Shown here: piece by piece, positions 1,598-24,067 of the stretch
Layout of the letters: each line of letters starts with the position of its first letter
Position numbering within the stretch: the first letter of the stretch is position 1
Virus record (IMG/VR): IMGVR_UViG_3300036766_000194
Coordinates: 124,001 to 188,000 of that record
From: a virus
Reading direction: 5' to 3' (one strand)
DNA: 64,000 nt
Position numbers and translations under genes: made by a program
The notes under the pieces: model-generated
Database searches by the model: none
What the model was told of the DNA's origin: nothing
The model's input: the letters and a program-made list of their open reading frames with translations, nothing else

Positions 1598-1686
1598 GGA
1601 GCGGACGCCCTGTTGGAATGGGCACCTGTCTGTAAAACAGGAGTCCCCTGCGGATATTGTGGGTTCGAATCCCTCTCGCTCCACCA
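1598..1686 (+). tRNA. tRNA-Tyr (anticodon GTA)
   Basis: Cloverleaf with acceptor GGAGCGG/TCGCTCC, anticodon stem CCTGT/ACAGG, loop CTGTAAA, long variable arm as in bacterial tRNA-Tyr, A73 and an encoded CCA. First gene of array 1. Confidence 0.93.
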
Positions 1687-1698
1687 AGTTTTATCTTT

Positions 1699-1784
1699 GC
1701 GCGAGTGGTGGAATGGCAGACACGCTGTCCTCAGAAGGCAGTCCTCGAAAGAGGGTGGAGGTTCAAATCCTCTCTTGCGCACCA
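1699..1784 (+). tRNA. tRNA-Leu (anticodon CAG)
   Basis: Acceptor GCGCGAG/CTTGCGC, anticodon stem CTGTC/GGCAG with loop CTCAGAA, long variable arm, encoded CCA. This is the only array-1 tRNA whose codon (CTG) is absent from the leader peptide. Confidence 0.92.
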
Positions 1785-1786
1785 AT

Positions 1787-1873
1787 GCCGAAGTGGCGGA
1801 ACTAGGCAGACGCGGCTGGCTCAAACCCAGTTGGTTAACAGCCATGGGGGTTCAAATCCCTCCTTCGGTACCA
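1787..1873 (+). tRNA. tRNA-Leu (anticodon CAA)
   Basis: Acceptor GCCGAAG/CTTCGGT with a G1-U72 wobble, anticodon loop CTCAAAC, long variable arm with paired stem, encoded CCA. Reads TTG. Confidence 0.9.
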
Positions 1874-1942
1874 AGTTTTTGGAGTTTACTGTGGTTTAGT
1901 TTAGAAAGGAGTAAACTAGGATAAACTCAGTAACTAGTTTGT

Positions 1943-2029
1943 GCGGGTATGGCGGAACTGGCAGACGCGTTGGACTTAAAATCCAATGGCCGCAAGGCCG
2001 TGGGGGATCGTGGCCCTCTACCCGTACCA
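1943..2029 (+). tRNA. tRNA-Leu (anticodon TAA), unusual T-loop
   Basis: Acceptor GCGGGTA/TACCCGT, anticodon stem TTGGA/TCCAA, loop CTTAAAA, long variable arm, encoded CCA. The T-loop reads ATCGTGG, with A54 and U58 instead of the universal U54 and A58. Confidence 0.88.
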
Positions 2030-2042
2030 AAGTTTTGATTTT

Positions 2043-2126
2043 CGGCGAGTGGCGTAATGGCAGCCGCGCTAGACTTAGAATCTAGTCCTTAAATGGGTGT
2101 GGGTTCGAATCCCTCCTCGCCGACCA
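2043..2126 (+). tRNA. tRNA-Leu (anticodon TAG)
   Basis: Perfect acceptor CGGCGAG/CTCGCCG, anticodon stem CTAGA/TCTAG with loop CTTAGAA, long variable arm, normal T-loop TTCGAAT, encoded CCA. Confidence 0.92.
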
Positions 2127-2132
2127 AAATTT

Positions 2133-2218
2133 GCACCTGTGCCGGAACTGGCATACGGGCACGGCTGAGAACCGTGGAGCGAAAGCTCTTGTGAGTTCGA
2201 CTCTCACCAGGTGCACCA
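2133..2218 (+). tRNA. tRNA-Leu (anticodon GAG)
   Basis: Acceptor GCACCTG/CAGGTGC, anticodon stem CACGG/CCGTG with loop CTGAGAA, long variable arm, encoded CCA. Reads CTC and CTT, completing a full Leu isoacceptor set. Confidence 0.92.
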
Positions 2219-2224
2219 ATATTC

Positions 2225-2281
2225 GCTAAGGATGGCGGAACTAGGCAGACGCATCCTTTAGGAACCCCAGTAGCGAGTCCG
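2225..2281 (+). pseudogene. 5' remnant of a sixth tRNA-Leu
   Basis: Starts with an acceptor-like GCTAAGG, a normal type II D-arm and a degenerate anticodon region containing TTTAGGA (TAG-like). It continues into the variable arm (AGTAGCGA) and then stops: no T-arm and no 3' acceptor strand follow. This looks like a truncated tRNA-Leu(TAG) duplicate. About 55 bases of A/T-rich sequence separate it from the next tRNA. Confidence 0.6.
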
Positions 2282-2337
2282 GTTTTGATATGTGATATTA
2301 TATAGAGGAAGGGGTTTCTATATAAGATAACCTATAT

Positions 2338-2427
2338 GGGAAGTTGGCAGAGTGGCCTATTGTGCTGGTTTGCTAAACCAGAATGCTCGAAAGGGCATCA
2401 GAGGTTCGAATCCTCTACTTCCCGCCA
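2338..2427 (+). tRNA. tRNA-Ser (anticodon GCT)
   Basis: Acceptor GGGAAGT/ACTTCCC, anticodon stem CTGGT/ACCAG with loop TTGCTAA, long variable arm, G73, encoded CCA. Reads AGC and AGT. Confidence 0.93.
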
Positions 2428-2431
2428 ATTT

Positions 2432-2521
2432 GGACGGTTGACAGAGTGGCCTATTGTGCACGCCTGGAAAGCGTGATTACCCGAAAGGGTAACGAGTGTT
2501 CGAATCACTCACCGTCCGCCA
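2432..2521 (+). tRNA. tRNA-Ser (anticodon GGA)
   Basis: Acceptor GGACGGT/ACCGTCC, anticodon stem CACGC/GCGTG with loop CTGGAAA, long variable arm, G73, encoded CCA. Reads TCC and TCT. Confidence 0.93.
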
Positions 2522-2525
2522 GATT

Positions 2526-2675
2526 ATGAATCTAAAATGCAAGTGTGGTGAGGACAAATGGGAAGTTGTACAGAAAGCTGATGGTAAGAAGACTCTTACC
2601 TGCTTGTCTTGTGGTGCTGAGATTTTAATTTTCTTACTACTTCATCCTGAAAATAAGGATGTGAAGTGGGAGTAA
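2526..2675 (+). CDS. 49-residue zinc-ribbon protein inside tRNA array 1
   Basis: ATG at 2526, five bases after the CCA of tRNA-Ser(GGA). The protein starts MNLKCKCG and has a second Cys pair, CLSCG, at about residues 26-30, then a hydrophobic stretch (ILIFLLL). The four cysteines fit a small zinc ribbon. There is no clear ribosome site, so translation may depend on tRNA processing freeing the 5' end (inference). Function unknown. Confidence 0.6.
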   Translation: MNLKCKCGEDKWEVVQKADGKKTLTCLSCGAEILIFLLLHPENKDVKWE

Positions 2676-2682
2676 AGAGTTT

Positions 2683-2769
2683 GGAAGATGTGAGCGATGG
2701 CCGCTCGCTCGTCTCGAAAACGAGTCAAGCCGAAAGGCATAGGGTGTTCGATTCACCCATCTTCCGCCA
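2683..2769 (+). tRNA. tRNA-Ser (anticodon CGA)
   Basis: Acceptor GGAAGAT/ATCTTCC, anticodon stem CTCGT/ACGAG with loop CTCGAAA, long variable arm, G73, encoded CCA. Reads TCG. Confidence 0.93.
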
Positions 2770-2772
2770 AAT

Positions 2773-2855
2773 GGAAAGATCTGCCGACGGCAAAGGCAAT
2801 CTGTCTTGAAAACAGACGCACCGAAAGGTGCACGGTTCGACTCCGTATCTTTCCT
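2773..2855 (+). tRNA. tRNA-Ser (anticodon TGA), CCA not encoded
   Basis: Acceptor GGAAAGA/TCTTTCC, anticodon stem TCTGT/ACAGA with loop CTTGAAA, long variable arm. The 3' end continues TCAT, so the CCA must be added after transcription, and the discriminator is T rather than the usual Ser G73. Reads TCA. Confidence 0.88.
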
Positions 2856-2873
2856 CATTAGTGAACTTTCTAT

Positions 2874-3194
2874 ATGGGTATAAAGTTCACAGTGTACAAA
2901 ACAACGAATCTTAAGAATGCCAAATTCTACCTTGGCTCTCATAAGACCGTTAATCCGAACGATAGCTATCTGGGTTCGGGTACACTTATCCTACGGGCGA
3001 TAGCCAAGTATGGAGAAGAGAACTTCAAAAAAGAAGTTCTCTTCGTATACGATAACGCTGAGAAAGCATTTAAGAAAGAATTTGAATTGGTAGAGGCTGA
3101 GAAGCAGGATAAACTCTGCTATAATTTAAGGCAGGGCGGCAGCGGTGGATTTGGGTCTTTGGTCGAAAGGACAATTTATTCTTATCTTGCGTGA
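2874..3194 (+). CDS. GIY-YIG homing endonuclease
   Basis: A 106-residue protein. The N-terminal half fits the compact GIY-YIG nuclease fold of phage Seg-type enzymes: VYKTTNLKNAKFYLGSHK (GIY/YIG-like strands), then the conserved block LGSGTLILRAIAKYGEENFKKEVL and a Glu-rich helix ending in the Asn-containing CYNLRQGGSGG. The sequence stops soon after the nuclease core, so the usual C-terminal DNA-binding modules are missing. It lies between tRNA-Ser(TGA) and the UAU tRNA, a typical homing location. It may have carried the last tRNA with it (inference). Confidence 0.8.
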   Translation: MGIKFTVYKTTNLKNAKFYLGSHKTVNPNDSYLGSGTLILRAIAKYGEENFKKEVLFVYDNAEKAFKKEFELVEAEKQDKLCYNLRQGGSGGFGSLVERTIYSYLA

Positions 3195-3233
3195 AGATGG
3201 AAAACCTGATTTACAACTCGCTGAGTAGATTTC

Positions 3234-3322
3234 GCTGATGACCGTTGGTACGGGGAACCGCCTTATAAGCGGTCGCTCTAGATTAGAGCTTCTTTAGGGT
3301 TCGATTCCCTACGTCAGCACCA
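3234..3322 (+). tRNA. Class II tRNA with UAU (Ile-type) anticodon
   Basis: Acceptor GCTGATG/CGTCAGC, perfect anticodon stem ACCGC/GCGGT, loop CTTATAA (anticodon TAT), T-arm TAGGG/CCCTA with loop TTCGATT, A73 and CCA. The variable region holds a hairpin GCTCTA/TAGAGC, so this is a class II tRNA, although normal tRNA-Ile is class I. The D-arm is cramped and position 8 is A. It reads ATA, the first array-specific codon of the leader peptide. Amino acid identity is uncertain (Ile, Leu or Tyr charging are all conceivable). Confidence 0.75.
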
Positions 3323-3327
3323 ATTCA

Positions 3328-3356
3328 AGAGGCTACTCAGTTTCGCAGCCTCTTTT
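3328..3356 (+). terminator. Terminator of tRNA array 1
   Basis: AGAGGCT 3328-3334 pairs with AGCCTCT 3347-3353, followed by TTTT. It lies six bases after the last tRNA. Confidence 0.75.
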
Positions 3357-3398
3357 CTCAGCCTCTTTTCGCTTTTTCAACCTCTTATAGAGGGATAA

Positions 3399-5483
3399 AT
3401 GAAAGTATTCGTATTGATGGAAAATAGTAACCCTGTAGGGGTTACAAAATCCAAAACAAAGGCTGAGAAGTGGCTCTTCTCTCCCGACAACGACTACCTT
3501 ACGTTTGAAATGGAAGACGTCCTCAAGTCAGAAGAGAAAGCTCCCGCTGCTCCTGTTGAAGAAAAAGATAAGACTCCTCAAGAACATCTCCTCCGTAATG
3601 TGGATAAATTAGAAACTCAAATAGAACAAGCCGATAAGAAACTTAAAGAAAATATAGAGCAGTTGAAGAAGTTTAAGCGTAAGTCTAGCGTCCCTAAAGA
3701 AGCAGCTGTAAACTACAAAGAAATGTTTAAAAAATTTCTTGAAGCTGTTCCTAAATTTGAAGGGGCTGTAAATCAAGAAATTTCCTGGGCTAAGGAACAT
3801 TTAGAAAAGAAAGATCGTATCGTTTGGTATCTCCGTTGGATTCGTCTCGGTATGATACAAGATGCGGAAAACACCGAACAATTGCCCAAAGGAACCTTAC
3901 ATAAAGAGCTAGATGCTCTAAAAATTAAAAGTGGGAAGCAATACACCCCAGCGGACATCATTCGTGATGACTGGCGTTTTAAACGGGATCTTCAACACTA
4001 CATGAGCGTGGCCGATCAAGAAATGCAGTCTAAGCAATTTGGATATGAAACTCCTTTCGAACTCATGACTGAATTAAAGACCATTGACGATAAATTTAAG
4101 GAAAAGGTGCAGGAAGACGCTCGTCTATTAGAACCCCAAGAAGATGACAAAGTATTAATCAAGTTTCCTGATGGTTGGGCCTGGTGGGCATTGAACCGTG
4201 GAGTTTGCTCTGAGGAAGCTGAAGCAATGGGACATTGCGGTAATCAAGGAATGGTCACAGGAAATCAAATCATAAGTTTACGTGAGCCTAAAAGCAAAGG
4301 TGGTAAGAATTATTGGGTACCTCACCTGACTTTTATTCTTGACAAGGATACCGGGATGTTGGGAGAGATGAAGGGGCGGGGTAACGAGAAGCCAGCTGCT
4401 CGTTATCATCCATACATCATAGAATTGTTGGAAGGTGATCGTATCAAAGGAATTCGCGGTGGCGGGTATCAACCTTCCCACAATTTTGCTATGAATGACC
4501 TGTCGGAAGAAGATCGCACCAAGTTGGAAGAAGATAAGCCAGAACTTATGACTTTGCGTCGTTATATGGCGAAGAATAAAAACAAAATTGATGACTATGT
4601 TATTGAGAAGACTCAGGTTCTTCTAGGGCTAAATTCCGAAACATATGATGAACATAACAAGGGATGGACTATTGAAACTTGGAAAAGTGTAGAAAATTTT
4701 GTAGAAGAAAGGGGTAACAGGCAAGCTCGATGGCTTATGAAGTATGAAACTGGGAGAGAGACTCTAGATGTAGATTATGTAAATGAAAATGACGCCTTAG
4801 ATTTCATTGATCGTCTTCCCGATGCTGTGGTGAAGAATATTGGTTTATCATTAGAACAGAACCGTGCCGATGAATTAAAAAAATTCAGAGAAAACTATCG
4901 CCCGTCTGCGCCACATCCCCGGCGTCGGCAGTATACCTGGGAACCAGACAATAGTGGAGATATAAAAGACTTCATAAAATATCTAGAAGAAGAAGGAAAA
5001 AATTCAGAGGTAATGGATAACTTACGTACCGCTTATCGTTATGGGGTAGAAAGCGGAACCCTAAGTCGTATGTCTGAGGTTCTAACCAGAGCCGTGGAAG
5101 AAGCCACAGACAGTTTCGAACGTATTAAGATAGTGTATGAAGGAAACAATGTTTACTATGGCAAAATCTTCGCAGTTCTCAAATTGGTTGACGCTGTTGA
5201 CATAGCTATGGAATGTGAAGACGAGGGAAGCTGTACTTCTGATCCTACCGAAACTCTTGAGACCCTAAAAGTAGAGGCAAGTGAACAAGACGATTACTAC
5301 GATTTTGATGAAAAATATGCCATAAAGCACCTAATAGAAGTGTACGGCGAAGCTCCCGAAGTACCCGAAAAGACTAAAAAGCCAGTAGAGAATAAGAGTA
5401 GGAAGAAAAAGAAGAAACTCAAGTCTAGCTTTCTTTTAGAGGGAGATCAAATTGTCCGCCACACTACCAATACTGACACATAG
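3399..5483 (+). CDS. 694-residue protein with a PcfJ-like motif
   Basis: The N-terminus is followed by a charged coiled-coil region (about residues 60-130) and a long helical domain. At about residues 270-335 a compact conserved-looking block reads MGHCGN, ISLREP, PHLTF and GEMKGRGNEKP. This resembles the MxHC...ISLR...G..N..P pattern of PcfJ-type proteins known from phages and conjugative elements, whose biochemical role is unclear. The C-terminus is acidic and then strongly basic (KSRKKKKKLK). The 3' end overlaps the next gene by 32 bases. Confidence 0.6.
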   Translation: MKVFVLMENSNPVGVTKSKTKAEKWLFSPDNDYLTFEMEDVLKSEEKAPAAPVEEKDKTPQEHLLRNVDKLETQIEQADKKLKENIEQLKKFKRKSSVPKEAAVNYKEMFKKFLEAVPKFEGAVNQEISWAKEHLEKKDRIVWYLRWIRLGMIQDAENTEQLPKGTLHKELDALKIKSGKQYTPADIIRDDWRFKRDLQHYMSVADQEMQSKQFGYETPFELMTELKTIDDKFKEKVQEDARLLEPQEDDKVLIKFPDGWAWWALNRGVCSEEAEAMGHCGNQGMVTGNQIISLREPKSKGGKNYWVPHLTFILDKDTGMLGEMKGRGNEKPAARYHPYIIELLEGDRIKGIRGGGYQPSHNFAMNDLSEEDRTKLEEDKPELMTLRRYMAKNKNKIDDYVIEKTQVLLGLNSETYDEHNKGWTIETWKSVENFVEERGNRQARWLMKYETGRETLDVDYVNENDALDFIDRLPDAVVKNIGLSLEQNRADELKKFRENYRPSAPHPRRRQYTWEPDNSGDIKDFIKYLEEEGKNSEVMDNLRTAYRYGVESGTLSRMSEVLTRAVEEATDSFERIKIVYEGNNVYYGKIFAVLKLVDAVDIAMECEDEGSCTSDPTETLETLKVEASEQDDYYDFDEKYAIKHLIEVYGEAPEVPEKTKKPVENKSRKKKKKLKSSFLLEGDQIVRHTTNTDT

Positions 5484-5682: not shown

Positions 5683-5843
5683 TTACAAACCGAAGGGATA
5701 ATCCTCTGCGGTGATGGACAGATGCCATTGCTCAACCGGGTGACGAAGTTAGCTTAGAACACCACTACTTTTAGATGTCGTACTAATGACGTGGACGAGT
5801 GTAGTAGGGAAGAATAGATGATCGTTTTAGCCAACTGAACGTG

Positions 5844-6623: not shown

Positions 6624-6709
6624 CTTGTCCTTTTCATGAAACGATAGAGTTTCCCAATTTCTTCTAGTGTAGAATCACTCTTTAGGATGTTAGCTCGATA
6701 GCTTATAAT
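6620..6709 (-). CDS. Tiny coupled ORF with a non-canonical start
   Basis: A coding-looking frame ends ...LEEIGKLYRFMKRTR with TGA overlapping the ATG of the membrane protein gene (ATGA). No ATG, GTG or TTG opens it. ATT (6709) or ATA (6706) lies a few bases after GAGGAAT. It may start at ATT/ATA or be the tail of a broken gene. Confidence 0.35.
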   Translation of the reverse strand: MISYRANILKSDSTLEEIGKLYRFMKRTR

Positions 6710-8319: not shown

Positions 8320-9439
8320 TTTTAGTTTTGTCCTGATTTATAATACTGGCTTTTTCTTGTTCCGTCTTTTTGCGTAGTCTAGCTTCACGACTACGACCAT
8401 CTTTAGCTGGCTCTAGAGTGAATACTGGAATGTCCAATGTTGGGTCCAGTTTAGCAATAGCCTTGGCGCTGAATTTATACTGTCTTCCGTAGGTATGAAT
8501 GACTTCGCGATAATTGGTGAGTTTAGGATTGATCTTTTTGAAGTAATTCCGCATCAAATTATCTTTGATGATACAATAGACGATAAATAGATTCTTAGGA
8601 GTTTTAATGTCTTTGCGCTTTATGGCATCGATAACCGTTTTAGCGATTTGTAATGGGCTGTTTACGCCATCATTTACCAAACGTTTTACCAAAGCCGTTA
8701 CGGTGCGCTGACGACTATAACGACGAGGTTCGTCAGAGTTACTAGCTTGTTGAATCTCGGGGAGAGATTTAGATAAAGATTCTTCCTCGGTTATCTTTAG
8801 ATCATCTGATATTAAAAATCTACCTTGAGGATCATCGTTAACAAGGTTAGAAACAACTGGTCCATGGTAGAACACTCTTTGATCTTCAGGAATGTGGTTA
8901 AGATTGAGAAGATTTCTAACTGGAGTTTCTACCAGAATGCTCTTTGTCTTTAGATTTATACGAACACAAGCAACACCATTCTGCATTACTTCTATTTTCC
9001 CGCAATAGTCCCGTGTTTCCCCATCTATAACTCTTACAAAGTCTCCAGCCCTAAGATTCTTAGCACGTTCATAAAAAATCTTCTGTATGTCCCTGATTAC
9101 CTCTTGAACATAGGAATCTTGTGCCATAATGGCTTTGCTGGGATGGTTGGTTTCTCCCTCTGTCACTAGTGCCACCACCCCCGTGATAGACTTGAGTCTG
9201 AGTAAGGGATGGATAGCATTGGTACGAATGAATATATAGATGCCAGTTTTAAGTTCAAAAACATCTAAGTCTCTTACACAAACCGGGATGAATACTTCTA
9301 CAGGTTCTGAACGAAAGATACTAGGAATAGCTTTTCCTATACGGCGTAGAGTCTGTTCGATCGTCTTCTCATTGCTTAACTCCATCATATACCAAGATTT
9401 ATTCTTGAGCTTCTCTATTGCGCCATATTGAAAAAGCAT
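8240..9439 (-). CDS. NusG-like protein with a KOW domain
   Basis: A 399-residue protein. Residues about 15-110 resemble an NGN domain (KSWYMMELSNEKT..., FELKTGIYIFIRTN, then the loop leading to VVALVTEG). Residues about 150-185 contain a KOW motif (AGDFVRVIDGETRDYCGKIEV). The second half is basic and helical with a low-complexity Lys/Arg tail. NusG/Spt5-family proteins bind RNA polymerase and suppress pausing or termination (known). A phage copy could act as an antiterminator, which is relevant to the conditional terminators seen here (inference). A divergent promoter region lies upstream. Confidence 0.6.
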   Translation of the reverse strand: MLFQYGAIEKLKNKSWYMMELSNEKTIEQTLRRIGKAIPSIFRSEPVEVFIPVCVRDLDVFELKTGIYIFIRTNAIHPLLRLKSITGVVALVTEGETNHPSKAIMAQDSYVQEVIRDIQKIFYERAKNLRAGDFVRVIDGETRDYCGKIEVMQNGVACVRINLKTKSILVETPVRNLLNLNHIPEDQRVFYHGPVVSNLVNDDPQGRFLISDDLKITEEESLSKSLPEIQQASNSDEPRRYSRQRTVTALVKRLVNDGVNSPLQIAKTVIDAIKRKDIKTPKNLFIVYCIIKDNLMRNYFKKINPKLTNYREVIHTYGRQYKFSAKAIAKLDPTLDIPVFTLEPAKDGRSREARLRKKTEQEKASIINQDKTKNVKPSAQGNGTKRTRPKVPKQSNTTV

Positions 9440-9503
9440 GTAGTACCTCTCTTCTGATTCAATACTACGTTCAGAGAATTTCGGAATATTAATAAATTAT
9501 TCA

Positions 9504-9533
9504 ATAGCCTATCAGAAAATTCAGAGGTAGAAT
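9504..9533 (+). promoter_or_regulatory. Phage-type promoter, leaderless spacing
   Basis: ATAGCC 9504-9509, 18 bases, TAGAAT 9528-9533. The next ATG is at 9540, about the expected initiation point, so a leaderless transcript is implied. On the opposite strand GTAGTATTG precedes the NusG-like gene. Confidence 0.5.
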
Positions 9534-9539
9534 ACTAAT

Positions 9540-9704
9540 ATGGGATTACGGGAAGAGCTTCTACAGGATTTAAAACGGTGCGAAGAACGGGCTATTGAAA
9601 TCCGTAAGCTCCTCGGCCTAGAAAAATCTACATGTTCTGAGGCAAAATTGAAACAGTTGGAAAATGCTCGCATAAAAAAGAAATTGAAGAAAGAAAACTC
9701 ATGA
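9540..9704 (+). CDS. 54-residue helical protein
   Basis: ATG at 9540 with AGAGGT upstream. The product is one long charged helix (MGLREELLQDLKRCEERA...) ending in a basic KKKLKKENS tail, a likely coiled coil. Its TGA overlaps the next ATG. Function unknown. Confidence 0.6.
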   Translation: MGLREELLQDLKRCEERAIEIRKLLGLEKSTCSEAKLKQLENARIKKKLKKENS

Positions 9705-9775
9705 TGGACTCTGCTCTTTTTGTAGTATTTAAAACAGTCTGGTTGGAAAAGAAGAACAAGAAGAAGGAGCAATGA
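9704..9775 (+). CDS. 23-residue peptide
   Basis: Starts in a TGATG overlap with the previous gene and ends at TGA 9773-9775 overlapping the next ATG. It is a short hydrophobic segment (ALFVVFKTVWL) plus a Lys-rich tail. It may only serve to couple translation. Confidence 0.35.
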   Translation: MDSALFVVFKTVWLEKKNKKKEQ

Positions 9776-9948
9776 AAAACACAATAATCCGTAATCAACT
9801 TCTACAAGCCATGGGAATTTCTTCGTCTATCAGTCAGATTGATGTAACTGACGTTAGTCTTGAACATCTCATTGCCATAAAACAAACCGCTCAGCAATTG
9901 CACCAATTGTTGAAGGAAATCACTCTTTCTATCCCCAAGGAACAGTAG
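9772..9948 (+). CDS. 58-residue hypothetical protein
   Basis: ATG preceded by AAGAAGGAGCA, a strong ribosome site. The product is small and helical (MKNTIIRNQLLQAMG...) with no cysteines or membrane segment. Third gene of a four-gene + strand mini-operon between two - strand blocks. Function unknown. Confidence 0.6.
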   Translation: MKNTIIRNQLLQAMGISSSISQIDVTDVSLEHLIAIKQTAQQLHQLLKEITLSIPKEQ

Positions 9949-9997
9949 GATAGATAGAGGCAAAGGAAGCTGCCTGTGATCTCATGTATCTTCATGG

Positions 9998-10159
9998 ATG
10001 GGAAACCCTTGTATTGAAAAATGTTGGTTGGTCGAATGTGTGGATGCGCATCCCTTTCGTGTTTTTGTGATGAAGGATTACACTGCCACATTGGATCCGT
10101 GTGAAGCGCAGCGATTCGATACGAAAGAAGAAGCAGAGACTTTCATTAACACCAGGTGA
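9998..10159 (+). CDS. 53-residue hypothetical protein
   Basis: A frame starting MGNPCIEKCWLVECVDAH and ending ...ETFINTR. Codon content and its position at the end of the mini-operon support coding. Four cysteines lie near the N-terminus and centre, but not in a clear zinc pattern. It faces the clamp-loader gene tail to tail. Confidence 0.5.
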   Translation: MGNPCIEKCWLVECVDAHPFRVFVMKDYTATLDPCEAQRFDTKEEAETFINTR

Positions 10160-10197
10160 AAATGCAGGCAGTGGAGTTCACATTCTGGTAAACCTTC

Positions 10198-11352
10198 TTA
10201 TTCTACTTTAAATCCACCCATACGGGCAGCTTCCTTAGCTGTTAAGGCAGATCCTTCTAAGCCGCTCTTAATAGGGGCAGGTGCTGATGAGGTTATTTTA
10301 TACCCGCTCTTCGCCGCTCCTGCTGCTCCAGGTAGTTTAGGATCTCTTATACAAAACATCTCATACAGGAACAAGGGAAGCACATCGGAGGATAGAGTTT
10401 GACTCTGACTCCACTTCATAAAAAATTCTGTCATAGTGGGAACGTTGCCAAACTGAGTCAGAACATCACTCAGTTCATCGGTAAATACGCTCCGAGCATA
10501 ATAGCCAAACATAGCCTCAATGATCTTAGCAGGTTCATAGACGCGGGCTAGTCCATCTATAGCGAATATGGCTTCTTTCTGCTTCTTTTGTAGGACTAAC
10601 GTAAATAAGTCTACTACTCCATCTTCTAGGGTTGTCTCAAGTTGAGATTTCACCAGTTCAACCGTTACATTTCCTAGGGCTGCAATTATATCTAACATCT
10701 TTACCGCATCACGCACTTTGCCCTTAGAGGCACGTGCTATAGCCCTGAGTGCTTCTAGCTCATACGTTACACCATTCTCTACCGATACTGCCGAGAGCAG
10801 CCCGAGAATAGTCTCATCAGCCACTTTAGCAAACCGTATGCGACAACTGCGACTCTTTATCGTGCCTGGGATCTTTTCAGGAGAATTGGTTATGAATATG
10901 AAAATGGCGTCAGTATCAGCAGCTTCTAAGGGTTTTAGATAGACGTCAAAGGCTTCCCGACTAAGACGATGAGCTTCGTCAATCATAGTCACTCGTCTTT
11001 TTCCTAAAATAGGAAGGGATATTCCTACTTCAAGGATATTTCTTGCTTGTTCTACCCCAGAATTTGATGCGGCGTCAACTTCACGGAAATCAGGATGTTG
11101 GTCAATACCATTGGTATCTATTAGATTACAGCTTTCACACTTTCCACAACCAAGAGGATCACTTCCTGTACACATAAGAGCACGGCTGTGGATATATGCG
11201 GTGGTGGTTTTACCGACACCCCGAATACCTTCAAATATGAACCCTCGTAATAGGAACTTATTGAATTTGAGTAACGCCTGTAGAACTTTTATGGCGCGGG
11301 GTTGCCCTACTACTCCATTCCAGTCTTGAGGTCGTTTAGTTATCAGGCTCAT
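10198..11352 (-). CDS. dnaX-like: DnaX-like clamp loader ATPase (gamma/tau type)
   Basis: A 384-residue AAA+ protein that would load the sliding clamp onto primed DNA. Visible in order: Walker A GIRGVGKTT (residues 42-50); a zinc module with Cys61, Cys69, Cys72 and Cys75 as in bacterial DnaX; Walker B VTMIDEAH (121-128); sensor 1 ITNS (154-157); and the SRC motif (168-170) at the subunit interface. The C-terminal third would form the collar. It is shorter than host DnaX, which has a tau tail. It fits the polymerase, primase and possible clamp genes of the window as a replication set. Confidence 0.92.
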   Translation of the reverse strand: MSLITKRPQDWNGVVGQPRAIKVLQALLKFNKFLLRGFIFEGIRGVGKTTTAYIHSRALMCTGSDPLGCGKCESCNLIDTNGIDQHPDFREVDAASNSGVEQARNILEVGISLPILGKRRVTMIDEAHRLSREAFDVYLKPLEAADTDAIFIFITNSPEKIPGTIKSRSCRIRFAKVADETILGLLSAVSVENGVTYELEALRAIARASKGKVRDAVKMLDIIAALGNVTVELVKSQLETTLEDGVVDLFTLVLQKKQKEAIFAIDGLARVYEPAKIIEAMFGYYARSVFTDELSDVLTQFGNVPTMTEFFMKWSQSQTLSSDVLPLFLYEMFCIRDPKLPGAAGAAKSGYKITSSAPAPIKSGLEGSALTAKEAARMGGFKVE

Positions 11353-18900: not shown

Positions 18901-20240
18901 CACGCTGGACCAAATTTAGGATTACATTCTAAACAATCGCATCCCTCAGAATGACTATCACTGAACCCTATTGGGAGGAGGTCTTTATTATAAATATCAT
19001 AGGTACCTTCAAATTGCTTACTCTCCAGGGGTTTTTGAATAGCAGCAATTTTCCTAACAAAGTCTCTAAATATTTCCTCTGTAACAACAAAGCCAGGAGC
19101 CTCAAATATATGAGCCAGAAGATCCGCCACCCCTGGATCCTTATCTTCTTCAGCCGCTTGATACAACATGAACAAGTCCTTCTTTAGGGGATTACTAAGA
19201 ATCTCATTCACTAACACGGCATGAGGATCCATAGTTACTTCAGCTTCGGGTTCAGTGTAGCGCGTAATAGGTTGGCGAGTGCCATTCTTCAAAGCGGTCA
19301 CTACTTCCTGAGAACGTTCTACAGAATTCCTCAATTGTTCTGCTTCACGCTCCTCGTAAGGACGTTTATTAGCCGACGCAATATATCCCACAACCGAAGT
19401 GAATATGGCTATCTTATTGTCTGGGTAATTTCCTTGATAGACCATTTGTAGAACAGCATCGCGTTCAAACTCGGTGAGAGTCCAATTCTCTTCTTCAGCC
19501 CACTTAGTAATTTCCATCTTCTCAAGTATTCTTGCTGCTGTAACGCGGAGCAAGGTGCGAAAGGTTAGAGCCTTTTCCAATAAGTCTACTTCTTGCCAGA
19601 CTATGGGATTATGCTCAGTGACCTCCACCGTAGTTATATCCTCTACTACAACTCCCGTATCAATATGAATCCACTCTTGTATATTGGCTACTTCGGCATA
19701 GTCTACAATCAATCCTAGCAGGTCACACTTTATACACGCAAAGATAGACTTAGCTAGTTTATTGGGGAGACCTGCTTCCTTAGAGAAATAATTAGGACAT
19801 TCCTGTTTAATAAATTGCCAGATGGTTACGTCGGGTTGGGTAAAGAACATCTTAGGATCATAACCCTCTTTGCGTACGACTTCAGCAAAGTGGCGACCGT
19901 TTTCAAGGATCTCAGCATATTGTTCAAGGTCTCCTGTAGAAGAACTGAACACTCCACTAGTCGTAACAAACTGCTTACCATAGCGGGCATCTCCCCCAAA
20001 TAGTGCTTTACGGTCATACACAAAGCAACATTCAATTTCACGAAAGCGAGGATCGTGAACCATCTCCCAAGTAGGACCCAGCGTCTTTACAACTCCAATG
20101 TGTTCGTCAAATAGATACCCGGTAATGATTTGACAATACTCATATTCTTCCTGAGTAACCTCCTGATCATCAGCCTGGATACGATATTCAAACTTGGCAT
20201 CATCTACTAACCCAAACAATCCTCGTAACTTACGATCCAT
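18900..20240 (-). CDS. 446-residue hypothetical protein
   Basis: A large mostly helical acidic protein with GAGGAC before its ATG. Only weak landmarks are seen: a hydrophobic segment ACIKCDLLGLIVDY in the middle and a C-terminal metal-like GCDCLECN. No catalytic motif is recognised. It heads a cluster of small coupled genes. Function unknown. Confidence 0.65.
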   Translation of the reverse strand: MDRKLRGLFGLVDDAKFEYRIQADDQEVTQEEYEYCQIITGYLFDEHIGVVKTLGPTWEMVHDPRFREIECCFVYDRKALFGGDARYGKQFVTTSGVFSSSTGDLEQYAEILENGRHFAEVVRKEGYDPKMFFTQPDVTIWQFIKQECPNYFSKEAGLPNKLAKSIFACIKCDLLGLIVDYAEVANIQEWIHIDTGVVVEDITTVEVTEHNPIVWQEVDLLEKALTFRTLLRVTAARILEKMEITKWAEEENWTLTEFERDAVLQMVYQGNYPDNKIAIFTSVVGYIASANKRPYEEREAEQLRNSVERSQEVVTALKNGTRQPITRYTEPEAEVTMDPHAVLVNEILSNPLKKDLFMLYQAAEEDKDPGVADLLAHIFEAPGFVVTEEIFRDFVRKIAAIQKPLESKQFEGTYDIYNKDLLPIGFSDSHSEGCDCLECNPKFGPA

Positions 20241-20252
20241 CGCTTTTGTCCT

Positions 20253-20418
20253 CTAGACTTTTAATACTGAATTCTTAACATGGGAAGGCAATTTGTCCCA
20301 ACATTCTAAACAAGCCGCCTTAACTGGTGGACCGGAGGATAATGTATGAACAAAAATGTGTTCAATTCTACTCGGACGGTCCGTAAGAAGTACATTTTAA
20401 ACAGTTAAGGGGGTGATC
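20253..20418 (-). pseudogene. Degraded two-Cys-pair zinc protein
   Basis: One frame reads DHPLNCLKCTS and the +1 frame continues TDRPSRIEHIFVH...ACLECWDKLPSHVKNS to TAG. Together they make a tidy CxxC...CxxC protein of length 55x3+1. No start codon precedes DHPL; TAG stands there. Probably a decayed gene. Confidence 0.4.
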
Positions 20419-20429
20419 CTAATATCTAG

Positions 20430-20471
20430 CACGATTTACCTCGGGTTGGACGGAGACCCGAGGATTTCGTG
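20430..20471 (-). other. Long hairpin in intergenic RNA
   Basis: Perfect 8-bp stem CCTCGGGT/ACCCGAGG (20439-20446, 20456-20463) with flanking CACGA/TCGTG, giving an extended hairpin with a small internal loop. No U-run follows on either strand, so it is not a standard terminator. Confidence 0.55.
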
Positions 20472-20500
20472 TGTTCAAATGAATAATTTCTTATTAAAGA

Positions 20501-20737
20501 TTATGTATAATCTGAAGATTGCCCTGCGCAATAGTCATGGTCCCAACAGAGATGTTCTACGCTTATGCGTGTCCAATCTCCATCTTCTTTTCGTTTCCAC
20601 TTAGTATTCATCCTAGTAGGTGTTTTTCCACAAAATTTATCACAATATCTAAACAGATATTCACAAGGACGGGAAGATTTGTATTCAGATTTGAGGACTA
20701 GGTTTTCTCTATCACACAAATTACAAGTTTCTGTCAT
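20501..20737 (-). CDS. 78-residue Cys-rich zinc protein
   Basis: The start is placed at MTETCNLCDRENLVLK. Further cysteines (CEYLFRYCDKFCGK, CWDHDYC) give two likely zinc sites. It is divergent from the gene at 20756 with an 18-base shared A/T-rich promoter region. Function unknown. Confidence 0.6.
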   Translation of the reverse strand: MTETCNLCDRENLVLKSEYKSSRPCEYLFRYCDKFCGKTPTRMNTKWKRKEDGDWTRISVEHLCWDHDYCAGQSSDYT

Positions 20738-20755
20738 GATAGTATTATTACTCAC

Positions 20756-20965
20756 ATGAGACCCTTTGAATGTAAAGACTGTAAAGAATCCTTCCCCACA
20801 GCAGAGTTCTTTGTGTATCACATTGACACCTGTAAACCGAAAAAGAACATAGATCTCACTCTAAAAGAACTGATAGAAATAAAGAATTACCTAGAGGCGT
20901 TCTCAATTCCGGGAGAAAGAAAGTTACATAAGTTGATTAAAAGACTCAACGAGGTGTTGTCATGA
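20756..20965 (+). CDS. C2H2-like zinc finger protein
   Basis: A 69-residue protein. FECKDCKESFPTAEFFVYHIDTC is a single C2HC-type finger (residues 4-26), followed by a Lys-rich helical tail. GATAGTATTATT just upstream may be the -10 region, leaving a very short leader. Small DNA- or RNA-binding protein (inference). Confidence 0.6.
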   Translation: MRPFECKDCKESFPTAEFFVYHIDTCKPKKNIDLTLKELIEIKNYLEAFSIPGERKLHKLIKRLNEVLS

Positions 20966-20969
20966 TCGG

Positions 20970-21131
20970 TTGGCTACTTTTCTCGGTGGTCGTAAAGAAT
21001 ACTACTACGACATTGCCGATTGGGTAAGTGACATGGAAGACTCTAAAATTCCTGAGTACATCCGTAGATGGATAGAACGTAATAATCCCGAACCAGACTA
21101 TGAAGAGGAAAATGAGCAAATTTCTACATAG
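20970..21131 (+). CDS. 53-residue protein, start possibly damaged
   Basis: The coding-looking frame runs ATFLGGRKEYYYDIADWVSD... to TAG 21129-21131 from TTG 20970. An ATG with upstream GAGGTG at 20962 opens MIGW in another frame; one extra G would join MIGW to ATFLGG. So this is either a TTG start or a one-base deletion. Confidence 0.45.
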   Translation: MATFLGGRKEYYYDIADWVSDMEDSKIPEYIRRWIERNNPEPDYEEENEQIST

Positions 21132-21321
21132 TGGATTTGAAATGCGTGAGGGACCGTCCAGTGACGATTATCGTTACGCGGCCCTTATCCCCGAGTCAGA
21201 ACGTTGTTCTACTTGTAAGGGGTTGAGGATCGTTAGAATACAACATTCCTGGACCGGGGAAGATTGGCAGGAATGTTACGTTTGCCGAGGGACGGGGAGA
21301 AAATCATATTCTTTATTGTAG
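21112..21321 (+). CDS. DnaJ-type zinc-ribbon protein
   Basis: The start is chosen at MSKFLHSGF after AAGAGGAAA. CSTCKG and CYVCRGTG form the CxxCxG pairs seen in DnaJ zinc modules; such 70-residue phage proteins are common. It overlaps both neighbours. Function unknown. Confidence 0.6.
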   Translation: MSKFLHSGFEMREGPSSDDYRYAALIPESERCSTCKGLRIVRIQHSWTGEDWQECYVCRGTGRKSYSLL

Positions 21322-21566
21322 GAGTAATTTTATTGTTGTGTTTCGGTATGTTTATGTCTTCTAGAGAAGACACCGTTCAGTCTAGAACGAATTCTTCACG
21401 TTTTGCTATCGTTTTCGAAGAACATCTGAACAGTCACATGATAGAAGTTTGGGAAGATAAAGAAACTCATCAAGAAATCGTTTGCGTCTATAATAAAATG
21501 GCTTCGCCTTCATGTTTCTTATCGGGAAGGTCATTTCCCCTTACAGAGACGCCAACCCAGCGTTAA
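21264..21566 (+). CDS. Single-pass membrane protein, start uncertain
   Basis: A membrane helix (IIFFIVGVILLLCFGMFM) followed by a soluble domain of about 65 residues with two Cys. The longest frame uses TTG 21264, and ATG 21273 is also in frame. However, GGGGAGAAA lies directly before ATC 21303/ATA 21306, so a non-canonical start at the membrane helix is possible. Confidence 0.5.
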   Translation: MAGMLRLPRDGEKIIFFIVGVILLLCFGMFMSSREDTVQSRTNSSRFAIVFEEHLNSHMIEVWEDKETHQEIVCVYNKMASPSCFLSGRSFPLTETPTQR

Positions 21567-21653
21567 TCCACATCCCGCCGCAAATCCGTAAGCAAACATA
21601 GAAATAAGTTGAAACAGAAGAAATTGCATAGATAATCCCCAATCTAAATTCAA
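21531..21653 (-). CDS. 40-residue membrane protein
   Basis: TTG start overlapping the stop of the exported-protein gene (TTGA); an internal ATG at 21629 is an alternative. It is hydrophobic (FLLFQLISMFAYGFAAGCGL) with a basic C-terminus. It overlaps the converging + gene by 36 bases. Confidence 0.45.
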   Translation of the reverse strand: MNLDWGLSMQFLLFQLISMFAYGFAAGCGLTLGWRLCKGK

Positions 21654-22273
21654 GACTTTACCCTTGGTTCTACTTCTTCGTGCTTCGGCTTATAGTGTCC
21701 GGTCGCCCATAAAGACATAATCTTTATAACATCTTCATCTTCATACCCCTGTACTTCTTTACACACGTCAAAAGTACTTTCGGAAAACGAAGGAAGTTTG
21801 TCTACATCTCCACGCTCCATTAAAACAATGCTACTCATCACAGTTGTGCCGTTGGAATCTTCCGTAAAGAACCCTACAACACGAGAACGAGAAGGATCAA
21901 CAAATATACTAACCTTAAAGGAAGAATCCTTATCAGGAATCCAGTGAAATTCTAATAGACGAATAGTGTCGTCATCGGGATAGATGTTTATGCTGGTTAG
22001 GTTGAACACAATAGGTTGCTTTAAGGACTGGGTAATTCCCGTCTTATTGTCATAATAAGATATCAATACAAAAGAGGGGTCAGAGTCGGCTAATTTTATG
22101 TGATAAGGAGTAAATTTTCCCTTCCCGCAAAATGAAGCATTGTATTCTCCAACCACTGGTTTAAGACTAGATTTCCATTCTTTTTGAGGGATTTCAATGT
22201 ATTCGGATTTTAATTGTTCACTTGTGATTGAAGGAAATAAGAAAATTGCTAGTATGATTGCTATAATCTTCAT
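21650..22273 (-). CDS. Exported protein, 207 residues
   Basis: A clear signal peptide (MKIIAIILAIFLFPSITS) and a beta-rich mature part with two Cys. No family recognised. It follows the tRNA array on the same strand and may be co-transcribed with it. Likely periplasmic. Confidence 0.65.
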   Translation of the reverse strand: MKIIAIILAIFLFPSITSEQLKSEYIEIPQKEWKSSLKPVVGEYNASFCGKGKFTPYHIKLADSDPSFVLISYYDNKTGITQSLKQPIVFNLTSINIYPDDDTIRLLEFHWIPDKDSSFKVSIFVDPSRSRVVGFFTEDSNGTTVMSSIVLMERGDVDKLPSFSESTFDVCKEVQGYEDEDVIKIMSLWATGHYKPKHEEVEPRVKS

Positions 22274-22346
22274 GAAGACTCCCGAACTACTCTTATGTTT
22301 TGTGGGTTTAAGTTTTTATTTATCTTGATTAGCGGGAATGAAGAAG

Positions 22347-22422
22347 TGGTAGGACCACAAGGATTCGAACCCTGGTATCGGAGGTAGAAGCTCCGCGCTC
22401 TGTCCGATTGAGCTATGGTCCC
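22347..22422 (-). tRNA. tRNA-Arg (anticodon TCT)
   Basis: Acceptor GGGACCA/TGGTCCT, anticodon stem CGGAG/CTCCG, loop CTTCTAC, normal T-loop, encoded CCA. Last tRNA of array 2. Reads AGA, present in the array-2 leader. Confidence 0.93.
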
Positions 22423-22426
22423 ACTT

Positions 22427-22502
22427 TGGAGGCCGGAGCGGGGTACGATCCCGCACACTTGGTTTAGGAAACCAGCGCACTGTCCATTTGTGCTATCCAG
22501 CC
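22427..22502 (-). tRNA. tRNA-Arg (anticodon CCT), unusual T-loop
   Basis: Acceptor GGCTGGA/TCCGGCC, anticodon loop TTCCTAA, T-stem GCGGG/CCCGC with loop ATCGTAC (A54, U58). Encoded CCA after T73. The only array-2 anticodon not sampled by the leader. Confidence 0.88.
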
Positions 22503-22507
22503 AAACT

Positions 22508-22582
22508 TGGTAGTCCCCACAGGACTCGAACCTGCAAAACGATGTTCGTAGCATCGTGTGATATCCATTTCACCAAGGGACC
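22508..22582 (-). tRNA. tRNA-Arg (anticodon ACG), copy 1
   Basis: Anticodon stem CGATG/CATCG with loop CTACGAA, normal T-arm, encoded CCA. Reads CGN codons if A34 is converted to inosine. Confidence 0.91.
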
Positions 22583-22585
22583 ACA

Positions 22586-22661
22586 TGGTATTCCCGGAGA
22601 GATTCGAACTCTCGTATCATCCTTCGGAGGAATGCGCCTGAGTCCACTAGGCTACGGGAAT
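22586..22661 (-). tRNA. tRNA-Arg (anticodon CCG)
   Basis: Acceptor ATTCCCG/CGGGAAT, anticodon loop CTCCGAA, normal T-arm, encoded CCA. Reads CGG. Confidence 0.91.
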
Positions 22662-22676
22662 AAACTCTATTAAACG

Positions 22677-22729
22677 CCGGATAGACTACAAAATTCTTCC
22701 GAAATCGTCTATCCGGTCACTATGACCGG
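22677..22729 (-). other. Alternative hairpins between tRNA genes
   Basis: CCGGATAGAC/GTCTATCCGG (22677-22686, 22707-22716) overlaps a second hairpin CCGGTCA-CTA-TGACCGG (22713-22729). The two stems share four bases and compete. They may guide processing or internal termination within the array. Confidence 0.5.
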
Positions 22730-22737
22730 GTATCTGG

Positions 22738-22812
22738 TGGATCCCAGAACTGGATTCGAACCAGTATGAATTCGTTCAGAGCGAATTAGGCTACCTATTG
22801 CCTCATCTGGGA
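22738..22812 (-). tRNA. tRNA-Gln (anticodon CTG), CCACCA end
   Basis: Perfect acceptor TCCCAGA/TCTGGGA, anticodon stem ATTCG/CGAAT with loop CTCTGAA. The discriminator is T, followed by CCA and immediately a second CCA. Confidence 0.88.
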
Positions 22813-22820
22813 ATTGAAAC

Positions 22821-22958
22821 TCATGTCGTACAAGATGAAAAGCGGTAATGATAAGGTTCACCGCCGTCATCATTACGGAGAGCTTCTGTGACCTTTGGCA
22901 ATGCGCATTCACACTGGTCATGCTCTTCCTGCGGACACCCGCCGTTTAAACGAACCAT
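22821..22958 (-). CDS. 45-residue Cys-containing protein inside array 2
   Basis: ATG after AAAGGAGTAATGAT, a strong ribosome site, so it is very likely translated although embedded between tRNA-Asn and tRNA-Gln. Sequence MVRLNGGCPQEEHDQCECAL... with clustered cysteines. Function unknown. Confidence 0.6.
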   Translation of the reverse strand: MVRLNGGCPQEEHDQCECALPKVTEALRNDDGGEPYHYRFSSCTT

Positions 22959-22979
22959 ATCATTACTCCTTTCTAAAAT

Positions 22980-23054
22980 TGGCTCTCCGAGTAGGACTTG
23001 AACCTACAACCTTTCGGTTAACAGCCGACTGCTCCGCCATTGAGCTACCGGAGA
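22980..23054 (-). tRNA. tRNA-Asn (anticodon GTT), copy 1
   Basis: Acceptor TCTCCGG/TCGGAGA, anticodon loop CTGTTAA, G73, encoded CCA. Confidence 0.9.
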
Positions 23055-23060
23055 ATTGAT

Positions 23061-23090
23061 AGGAGATGATAGTCGCGACTATCATCTCCT
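23061..23090. repeat. Perfect 30-bp palindrome
   Basis: AGGAGATGATAGTCG followed directly by its exact reverse complement, no loop. It lies six bases from tRNA-Asn in the array. It could be a dimeric protein site or a cruciform/RNA hairpin. Confidence 0.85.
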
Positions 23091-23096
23091 TCTTAA

Positions 23097-23171
23097 CTAG
23101 TCGGCCAATTCTTGAATTTTGGCATTTCCAGCTCTGCCAATGGCGGCTGGCGTCTTTCCGTTAAACGACGA
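23097..23171 (-). pseudogene. Ankyrin-like fragment
   Basis: A 24-codon frame reads FNGKTPAAIGRAGNAKIQEL, like part of an ankyrin repeat (G-x-T-P-x-x-x-A...G...I...L). No start codon. Probably a gene remnant between the two tRNA-Asn genes. Confidence 0.3.
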
Positions 23172-23176
23172 CTAAA

Positions 23177-23252
23177 TGGCTGGGGCGGGAGGACTCGAAC
23201 CTCCAAGTACCTGAGTAACAGTCAGGCGCTGTACCGATTGAGCCACACCCCA
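23177..23252 (-). tRNA. tRNA-Asn (anticodon GTT), copy 2
   Basis: Acceptor TGGGGTG/CGCCCCA, anticodon stem CCTGA/TCAGG with loop CTGTTAC, G73, encoded CCA. It differs considerably from copy 1, so not a recent duplicate. Confidence 0.92.
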
Positions 23253-23270
23253 ATTGAACTTCTACAACTC

Positions 23271-23346
23271 TGGTGGAGCAGATGGGATTTGAACCCACAT
23301 CCTTCGCATTGCAAGTGCGCTGCGCCGCCAATTGCGCCACTGCCCC
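23271..23346 (-). tRNA. tRNA-Ala (anticodon TGC)
   Basis: Acceptor GGGGCAG/CTGCTCC, anticodon loop CTTGCAA, normal T-arm, A73, encoded CCA. Confidence 0.91.
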
Positions 23347-23355
23347 AAAGTTAAG

Positions 23356-23429
23356 TGGTAGGGCTAGGGAGAATCGAACTCCCGTCTACTGATTAAGAGT
23401 CAGCAGCTTTACCATTAAGCTATAGCCCT
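23356..23429 (-). tRNA. tRNA-Lys (anticodon CTT)
   Basis: Acceptor AGGGCTA/TAGCCCT, anticodon loop CTCTTAA, normal T-arm, encoded CCA. Reads AAG. Confidence 0.92.
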
Positions 23430-23461
23430 AAAATTGCCCATATTTTTATCCCACGTCGGCT

Positions 23462-23575
23462 TTACGTTACCTTACGATAACGAGCGTGTGATGCCTTAGA
23501 CTTACGTCCGTAACAGGCGGCATCCACCCGGCTTATTTGCGTGAACGGAGGCAAGCTACCCCCGTCACGCTTCAT
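23462..23575 (-). CDS. 37-residue basic ORF inside array 2
   Basis: Opens MKRDGGSLPPFTQISRV and ends with a Lys/Arg/His-rich tail. No ribosome site; the ATG follows the CCA of tRNA-Arg(ACG) copy 2 by only four bases. Translation is doubtful. Confidence 0.3.
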   Translation of the reverse strand: MKRDGGSLPPFTQISRVDAACYGRKSKASHARYRKVT

Positions 23576-23579
23576 AAAA

Positions 23580-23655
23580 TGGTATCCCCGGCAGGATTTG
23601 AACCTGCGTATCTGGTTTCGTAGACCAGTACCTGAGTCCACTAGGCTACGGGGAC
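23580..23655 (-). tRNA. tRNA-Arg (anticodon ACG), copy 2
   Basis: Acceptor GTCCCCG/CGGGGAT, anticodon stem CTGGT/ACCAG with loop CTACGAA, normal T-arm, encoded CCA. Confidence 0.91.
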
Positions 23656-23666
23656 AAAGTAACTTC

Positions 23667-23742
23667 TGGTGGGTCCGGAGGGTTATGATCCCCCATAACG
23701 CTGTTTAAAAGACAGCTGCTTTGCCAGTTAAGCTACGAACCC
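23667..23742 (-). tRNA. tRNA-Lys (anticodon TTT), unusual T-loop
   Basis: Acceptor GGGTTCG/CGGACCC, anticodon stem GCTGT/ACAGC with loop CTTTTAA, encoded CCA. The T-loop is ATCATAA (A54, U58). Confidence 0.88.
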
Positions 23743-23752
23743 ATTTAAAACT

Positions 23753-23829
23753 TGGGGTGTAGGACGGGTCTCGAACCCGCTTTAACCGGATTCACAGTCC
23801 GGCGCGTCACCTGTTTCGCCTCCTACACC
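23753..23829 (-). tRNA. tRNA-His (anticodon GTG)
   Basis: Acceptor GTGTAGG/CCTACAC with an encoded G-1 facing C73, the His identity pair, anticodon loop CTGTGAA and encoded CCA. A small upstream ORF reads into its 5' half. Confidence 0.92.
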
Positions 23830-23898
23830 ATCGTTTAGTGCTTCCTTGTAAAAGGCAGTTTCAGTCCATTTCTTTTTCAAATGGGCATGAACAGCCAT
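23782..23898 (-). CDS. 38-residue ORF overlapping tRNA-His
   Basis: ATG nine bases after AGGAG. Opens MAVHAHLKKKWTETAFYKEA and then runs 48 bases into the tRNA-His gene before stopping. Either a small gene truncated by the tRNA or a true overlap; translation would conflict with tRNA folding. Confidence 0.4.
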   Translation of the reverse strand: MAVHAHLKKKWTETAFYKEALNDGVGGETGDAPDCESG

Positions 23899-23995
23899 AT
23901 CAGTTACTCCTAGTTTCCTAGCACACGGTCCACCATTGTTGTTTTCTCATGAACCCTTCAATGCCCTTTGTAAGAGATACTGAAAGTCACGAATG

Positions 23996-24067
23996 CAGGA
24001 TGGGAGGGACTCGAACCCCCGTAAACGGTTTTGGAGACCGTTGTCCTGGCCGCTGAACGACCATCCT
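23996..24067 (-). tRNA. tRNA-Trp (anticodon CCA)
   Basis: Acceptor AGGATGG/CCATCCT, anticodon stem ACGGT/ACCGT with loop CTCCAAA, G73. The 3' CCA is not encoded (GCA follows). First gene of array 2, directly after the alternative stems. Confidence 0.92.

Follow-up and report, generated by a model that had tools for sequence, protein, structure and literature searches.

The transfer RNA (tRNA) genes of a soil jumbo phage, represented by the 299,875-base IMG/VR virus record IMGVR_UViG_3300036766_000194, are distributed over its arrays by amino acid, and a clade of soil jumbo phages has largely preserved this division. Our wholly computational analysis started from a stretch of 64,000 nucleotides of this record (bases 124001–188000; hereafter, the window), which carries two tRNA arrays. 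Class II tRNAs have a long, usually helix-forming variable arm and, in bacteria, belong to the Leu, Ser or Tyr isotypes. In the preliminary description of the window, array 1 was reported to consist exclusively of long-armed (class II) tRNAs and array 2 of 13 short-armed (class I) tRNAs, from which nonrandom sorting by structural class was deduced. Nonrandom sorting recurs in related phages, but its key is the amino acid rather than the class, with short-armed tRNAs for Leu lying inside and long-armed tRNAs for Thr, Gln, Lys and other amino acids lying outside the arrays in question. A near-identity search in annotated phages yielded no close match to the phage of the window.

The tRNAs were called with ARAGORN, with Rfam used as confirmation for the 11 and 13 tRNAs of the window, and the length of the variable region was taken from the predicted cloverleaf. 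The tRNA features are the following (window positions, unless genome coordinates are indicated):

1598–3322, + strand: array 1, 11 tRNAs (Tyr, five Leu, four Ser and one with a UAU anticodon; ARAGORN)
1598–1686, + strand: tRNA-Tyr(GUA) with a long arm (ARAGORN)
1699–2218, + strand: tRNA-Leu block, all long-armed (ARAGORN); CAG 1699–1784, CAA 1787–1873, UAA 1943–2029, UAG 2043–2126, GAG 2133–2218
2222–2280, + strand: decayed tRNA-Leu (blastn)
2338–2856, + strand: tRNA-Ser block, all long-armed (ARAGORN); GCU 2338–2427, GGA 2432–2521, CGA 2683–2769, UGA 2773–2856
2874–3194, + strand: homing-endonuclease-like open reading frame between Ser(UGA) and the UAU tRNA (PHROG 314, E = 1.5e-32)
3234–3322, + strand: UAU-anticodon tRNA with a 21-nt variable arm (ARAGORN structure)
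22347–24067, − strand: array 2, 13 short-armed tRNAs (ARAGORN, Rfam)
8836–10932, 38703–42998 and 231973–232900, genome coordinates: other tRNA clusters of the record
118072 and 239973, genome coordinates: single tRNA genes

The variable regions measure 13–21 nt in all 11 tRNAs of array 1, and all 13 tRNAs of array 2 (in transcription order, Trp, His, Lys, Arg, Lys, Ala, Asn, Asn, Gln and four Arg) have loops of 4–5 nt. The reported difference between the arrays was thus confirmed, and it extends to the whole genome: the record encodes 47 tRNAs, every one of the 23 located outside the window is short-armed, and the split is complete, with 11 long-armed genes, all in array 1, versus 36 short-armed genes in array 2 and elsewhere. 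By arm length, all 11 tRNAs of array 1 belong to class II, and 10 of them do so also by isotype, the UAU tRNA departing by its anticodon. The record holds about 5 tRNA arrays rather than 2, nearly all of which are composed of amino-acid blocks, such as four Pro, three Thr, five Leu, four Ser or four Arg genes. With 11 and 13 genes at densities of approximately 6.4 and 7.6 per kb, respectively, arrays 1 and 2 do not qualify as phage tRNA gene clusters, for which 15 genes and a density of 2 tRNAs per kb are the minimum (PMC6409571), and no array of the record reaches 15 genes.

Relatives were gathered by a terminase search and a profile search of viral contigs, the regions recovered being then called with ARAGORN, and the comparison set comprised approximately 20 tRNA-rich phages. 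Most relatives are metagenomic contigs, which are possibly incomplete, the genomes are not independent of one another, and the control phages are a small sample picked among those known or found to be tRNA-rich. The terminase-based clade includes Tunturi_5 (W01 in the genome lists) and metagenomic phages carrying up to approximately 69 tRNAs. In the phage of the window, 40 of the 45 same-amino-acid pairs share an array, compared to 8.5 expected (p = 0.0002, the floor of this test with 5000 shuffles). Seven relatives with a shared terminase show similarly strong sorting by amino acid, at the floor in Tunturi_5, G014, G017, G018, G019 and G026 and with p = 0.0002–0.0004 in G015, and the floor (p = 0.0002) is also reached by the more distant W02 (485 kb) and G036 (619 kb). 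Little or no sorting is seen in G013, G023 and G025, each with 1 or 2 mixed arrays; together with G009, these mixed phages form one branch of the terminase tree.

The composition of the arrays is recognizable from one sorted relative to the next. Val, Gly, Asp and Glu occupy a common array without exception, often joined by Ala and Cys; Thr is invariably found with Gln and often also with Ile; Pro is grouped with Met and Phe; His, Arg, Asn, Lys and Trp form a further group, with Arg always accompanying Lys and Trp; and Leu shares an array in every case with Tyr, and also with Ser. The GNN codon set (Val, Ala, Gly, Asp and Glu) stays together in several phages. Codon boxes, synthetase classes and amino-acid biosynthesis were weighed informally as the logic of the whole division, and none of them fits all arrays. 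Outside the clade, amino-acid blocks without grouping by class are found in W02, G036, LR756501, Zooman, CcrColossus and, partly, XacN1, and are weak or absent in KVP40, EniLVp02, DSS3_MAL1, VpD479 and Atu_ph07. None of the 9 control phages (the last 9 named) devotes an array to Leu, Ser and Tyr alone, and in W02, G036 and LR756501 the genes for these 3 amino acids lie in separate arrays. Given their presence in unrelated phages, amino-acid blocks represent a wider pattern, and it is the joint Tyr/Leu/Ser array that belongs to the Tunturi-like clade.

Arm length is uncoupled from the amino acid in these phages and, where the two disagree, gene position does not follow arm length. tRNA-Leu with variable loops of 5–7 nt is encoded by Tunturi_5, G015, G017, G018, G019 and G026, and short-armed tRNA-Leu is also present in KVP40, Zooman and LR756501 (4–7 nt over the whole sample). 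Eleven of the 12 short-armed Leu genes are located within Leu/Ser/Tyr blocks, and the twelfth, that of G036, is isolated; the Tyr/Leu block of G019 is less than 3 kb away from a Pro/Met/Phe block and was counted as merged with it, and the 3 short-armed Leu genes of this phage were judged by block. Most sorted relatives also carry long-armed Thr, Gln, Lys, Asn, Arg, Pro and Trp genes, and long-armed Cys tRNAs appear in the list covering G014–G026, W01 and the controls. Among long-armed genes for amino acids other than Leu, Ser and Tyr, 30 of 31 reside outside Leu/Ser/Tyr arrays, the exception being the UAU tRNA of the window. The long arms are hairpins, the stems of which vary among phages in a compensatory way, as in Thr(UGU) (GGA-GAAA-TCC, GGG-GAAA-CCC and AGA-GAAA-TCT) and Asn (GTC-GAAA-GAC and GCA-GAAA-TGC), so that most long-arm calls are unlikely to be folding errors; doubtful single calls include G020 Glu, G021 Arg and W01 Pro at 245074.

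The uncoupling holds at a single locus in close relatives. The Tyr/Leu arrays of G014, G015, G017, G018 and G019 share flanking genes and hence a locus, and mixed arrays in the same loci of close relatives, which the preliminary description had named as counterevidence to its reading, were found there as regards structure, although not as regards amino-acid content. Array 1 of the window does not occupy this locus, which was ruled out by its nonmatching flanking genes. Collectively, these observations largely refute selected class sorting, that is, co-transcription of class II tRNAs because of class-specific processing, modification or protection from nucleases. This explanation, which we regard as very improbable, would readily accommodate the perfect split in the phage of the window and the great rarity, within the clade, of arrays that combine Leu, Ser or Tyr with a class I amino acid, Cys being the main exception. 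However, short-armed Leu stays in and long-armed Thr, Gln, Lys, Asn, Arg, Pro and Trp stay out, the distant sorted phages hold Leu, Ser and Tyr apart, and one promoter motif is common to arrays of both kinds (see below). Defence against class-specific nucleases, in particular, is neither shown nor needed.

The account that we consider rather probable is that amino-acid blocks grow by local duplication and anticodon change, and that the Tyr, Leu and Ser blocks reside in one array by descent. The phage would hold an almost complete private tRNA set in the form of several arrays, assembled from amino-acid (isoacceptor) blocks that act as inherited cassettes. Blocks would turn over in place, a gene being copied beside itself and its anticodon altered, while the body recognized by the synthetase is retained, and local duplication would have been the original maker of the blocks. 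The joint Tyr/Leu/Ser array would represent one ancestral arrangement, inherited within this group of jumbo phages, from which the class split in the window would follow; array 1 looks class-sorted because tRNAs for Tyr, Leu and Ser are normally long-armed. Another possibility, which we find plausible, albeit clearly less probable, is that the 3 blocks merged by chance in one ancestor and were retained by descent alone. The confinement of the joint array to the clade (Leu, Ser and Tyr being apart in W02, G036 and LR756501), the detachment of Ser from Tyr/Leu in G018 and G019, and the restriction of the mixed phages G013, G023 and G025 to a single branch of the terminase tree are all consistent with such a merger, whereas the persistence of the grouping despite different flanking genes (the phage of the window versus the G014–G019 group) and reshuffled inner gene order is not readily explained by it.

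Several points weigh against the account that we favor. The fair null for the class split moves amino-acid blocks whole rather than single genes. Random placement of single genes yields the 11/36 split with a probability of 1/C(47,11) = 6e-11; under whole-block shuffling, the four long-armed blocks exactly fill one array with a probability of 1/C(26,4) = 7e-5, and all four fall into any one array in 0.7% of cases, both calculations being post hoc. At 7e-5, amino-acid blocks alone leave the nearly exclusive Tyr/Leu/Ser array unexplained. Furthermore, the UAU tRNA, which is long-armed and not of the Leu, Ser or Tyr type, does sit in the class II array, and 64 of 78 Leu/Ser/Tyr tRNAs are closer to the isoacceptors of other phages than to their neighbors, implying that most of the duplication, if any, is old. 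Finally, an ancestral sorting by tRNA shape is still conceivable.

The tRNAs for Leu, Ser and Tyr have separate ancestries. In a tree of 77 such tRNAs, from which, given its 86 columns, only the broad result was used, the sequences group by amino acid (4 changes, the least possible being 2) and not by phage (54 changes versus 55.5 when shuffled), and forcing the ten Leu/Ser/Tyr tRNAs of the window into one clade was rejected under the model used (p-AU = 0.0024). Serial duplication of a single class II ancestor into the whole array, one of the origins put forward earlier, is therefore hardly credible, all the more so as the best outside matches of the Leu genes, Ser(GCU) and Ser(GGA) of array 1 are the cognate tRNAs of other phages. 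What survives of this proposal is duplication within the Leu and Ser blocks: Ser GCU, GGA and CGA of the window form a local clade, and the D-arm of the decayed tRNA-Leu (2233–2252) is identical over 20 nt to that of Leu(CAA) of array 1 (blastn). Assembly of arrays from similar tRNAs of different amino acids was also considered and rejected, since pairs from a common array show no excess similarity in 6 of the 7 testable genomes, G018 being the exception.

Within the amino acids, anticodons have turned over, being unrelated to the tRNA body for Leu (20 changes versus 20.4 shuffled) and nearly so for Ser (15 versus 16.5). Together with the local Ser clade and the decayed Leu copy, this independence fits local duplication with anticodon change. 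In Escherichia coli, leucine identity depends neither on the anticodon nor on the long arm (PMC9976931, a review), and for this reason such a change would be tolerated by LeuRS; more generally, it would be easy for Leu and Ser, because LeuRS and SerRS are independent of the anticodon.

The UAU tRNA, the closest relative of which is the long-armed UAU tRNA of G025, is most likely an isoleucine tRNA for AUA codons that carries a long arm. Across 38 phage genes that have homologues, the residues aligned to 232 AUA positions are Ile at 0.32, Val at 0.21 and Leu at 0.16. These values resemble those of AUU/AUC codons (Ile 0.37, Val 0.18 and Leu 0.15) and differ from those of Leu codons (Leu 0.53), which indicates that AUA means Ile in this phage and rules out its reassignment to Leu, Ser, Tyr or Met. 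Tentative stop-codon tRNAs, judged by anticodon, are also encoded by this phage, with UCA (genome 239973–240046, − strand) and a doubtful UUA (genome 9571–9641, + strand); CUA tRNAs, one to three each, are found in many of the relatives G008, G013, G017–G021, G023 and G025.

Both arrays of the window are preceded by putative promoters and structured leaders:

1393–1440, + strand: array 1 promoter, AATCGCTAATTAACCTTTTT motif followed by a TATATT-like −10 region
1441–1597, + strand: array 1 leader, with a terminator-like hairpin at approximately 1546–1575 followed by CTTTTGTTTT
24068–24262, − strand: array 2 leader with a long hairpin (sequence; fold z = −3.0)
24262–24308, − strand: array 2 promoter, same motif as that of array 1

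The motif AATCGCTAATTAAC(C/T)TTTTT occurs at exactly 3 sites of the genome with 0–1 mismatches, the next best site having 4, and the 3 sites precede array 1, array 2 and the Gln/Thr/Cys array; the promoter-like sequences of the remaining 2 clusters are more generic. The common motif suggests that the 3 arrays are co-regulated and, given the near identity of their promoters, they probably work jointly as a single source of tRNAs during infection. Although the leaders of arrays 1 and 2 differ in sequence, the division of codons into two regulons proposed in the preliminary description is thus unsupported at the promoter level. The leader of array 1 folds with −55.0 kcal/mol (z = −4.4 versus mononucleotide shuffles), and the hairpins, of which that of array 1 is terminator-like and precedes the first tRNA, would be compatible with attenuation. 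Such leaders could in principle sense a shortage of charged tRNA, with grouping by amino acid allowing joint induction of amino-acid-specific regulatory units. We consider this explanation unlikely, because the same promoter motif serves 3 arrays, several arrays contain many amino acids, no conserved leader was found in the relatives by 12-mer comparison, and Rfam revealed no T-box in the sequence scanned.

Several other genes were noted in the vicinity of the arrays. Full-length class A RNase P RNA genes (167–255 bits, cut-off 100) are present in or near tRNA arrays in the phage of the window, where the gene lies between Met tRNAs, and in 4 relatives:

L003:3519–3894 (genome 41519–41894): RNase P RNA, phage of the window
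G014:252982–253290, G017:126418–126716, G018:305811–306131 and G019:92128–92502: RNase P RNA, relatives

We found no paper describing RNase P RNA genes in or near such phage arrays. A permuted transfer-messenger RNA (RF04321, 51.6 bits, cut-off 47; L010:6665–6926, genome 234365–234626, − strand) is located approximately 1.5 kb from a tRNA array, and an AAA ATPase gene (window 25188–26186, − strand) lies upstream of array 2, its homologues adjoining the Tyr/Leu arrays of G017 and G018. The terminase genes (window 51426–54422, − strand; L022 and L018) contain intein-like insertions that differ among relatives. The RNase P RNA genes in or near the arrays and the phage tRNAs at odds with the class I/II rule, short-armed and long-armed alike, are the most surprising by-products of this analysis.

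The usual explanation of phage tRNA sets considers each codon separately. The conserved division indicates that phages acquire, retain and relocate these genes amino acid by amino acid, while the anticodons vary within a block, so that the origin of phage tRNA sets becomes testable as cassette evolution. The uncoupling of arm length from the amino acid provides natural tests of what synthetases and host nucleases require of a tRNA. The combined proposition, namely, that phage tRNAs break the class rule both ways, that the altered arms could render them poor substrates of host nucleases or modification enzymes, and that the Tunturi-like division is selected, is advanced tentatively, our confidence in the whole falling somewhat short of an even balance. 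In the literature available to us, an incomplete library, we found no paper on amino-acid sorting across several arrays or on class-breaking phage tRNAs.

The closest known system is Tunturi_5 (PP885688; PMC11924767), a phage of the acidobacterium Tunturiibacter, for which the passages seen report 43 tRNAs by amino acid and describe neither their sorting nor arm length. Like the phage of the window, it is a jumbo myovirus with a related terminase, and its Tyr, Leu and Ser genes are in one array of nine, its other 2 arrays being free of Leu, Ser or Tyr genes; unlike array 1, its Tyr/Leu/Ser array includes a Cys gene and 2 short-armed Leu genes. The jumbo phage XacN1 (PMC5852040) similarly covers all 20 amino acids and has some long-armed class I isotypes and some adjacent isoacceptors (5 versus 0.5 expected), but its genes form mostly one mixed array in which long- and short-armed genes are interleaved. 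The uncultured 735-kb LR756501 and Microbacterium phage Zooman share strong amino-acid blocks (24 and 21 adjacent pairs, respectively, versus approximately 2 expected), although without an array exclusive to Leu, Ser and Tyr. The phage tRNA gene clusters surveyed by Morgado and Vicente in 2019 (PMC6409571) are likewise dense, and their isotype order is conserved within phage groups; whereas the clusters counted there were single ones with 15 genes or more, the phage of the window spreads its set over several arrays with a conserved division by amino acid.

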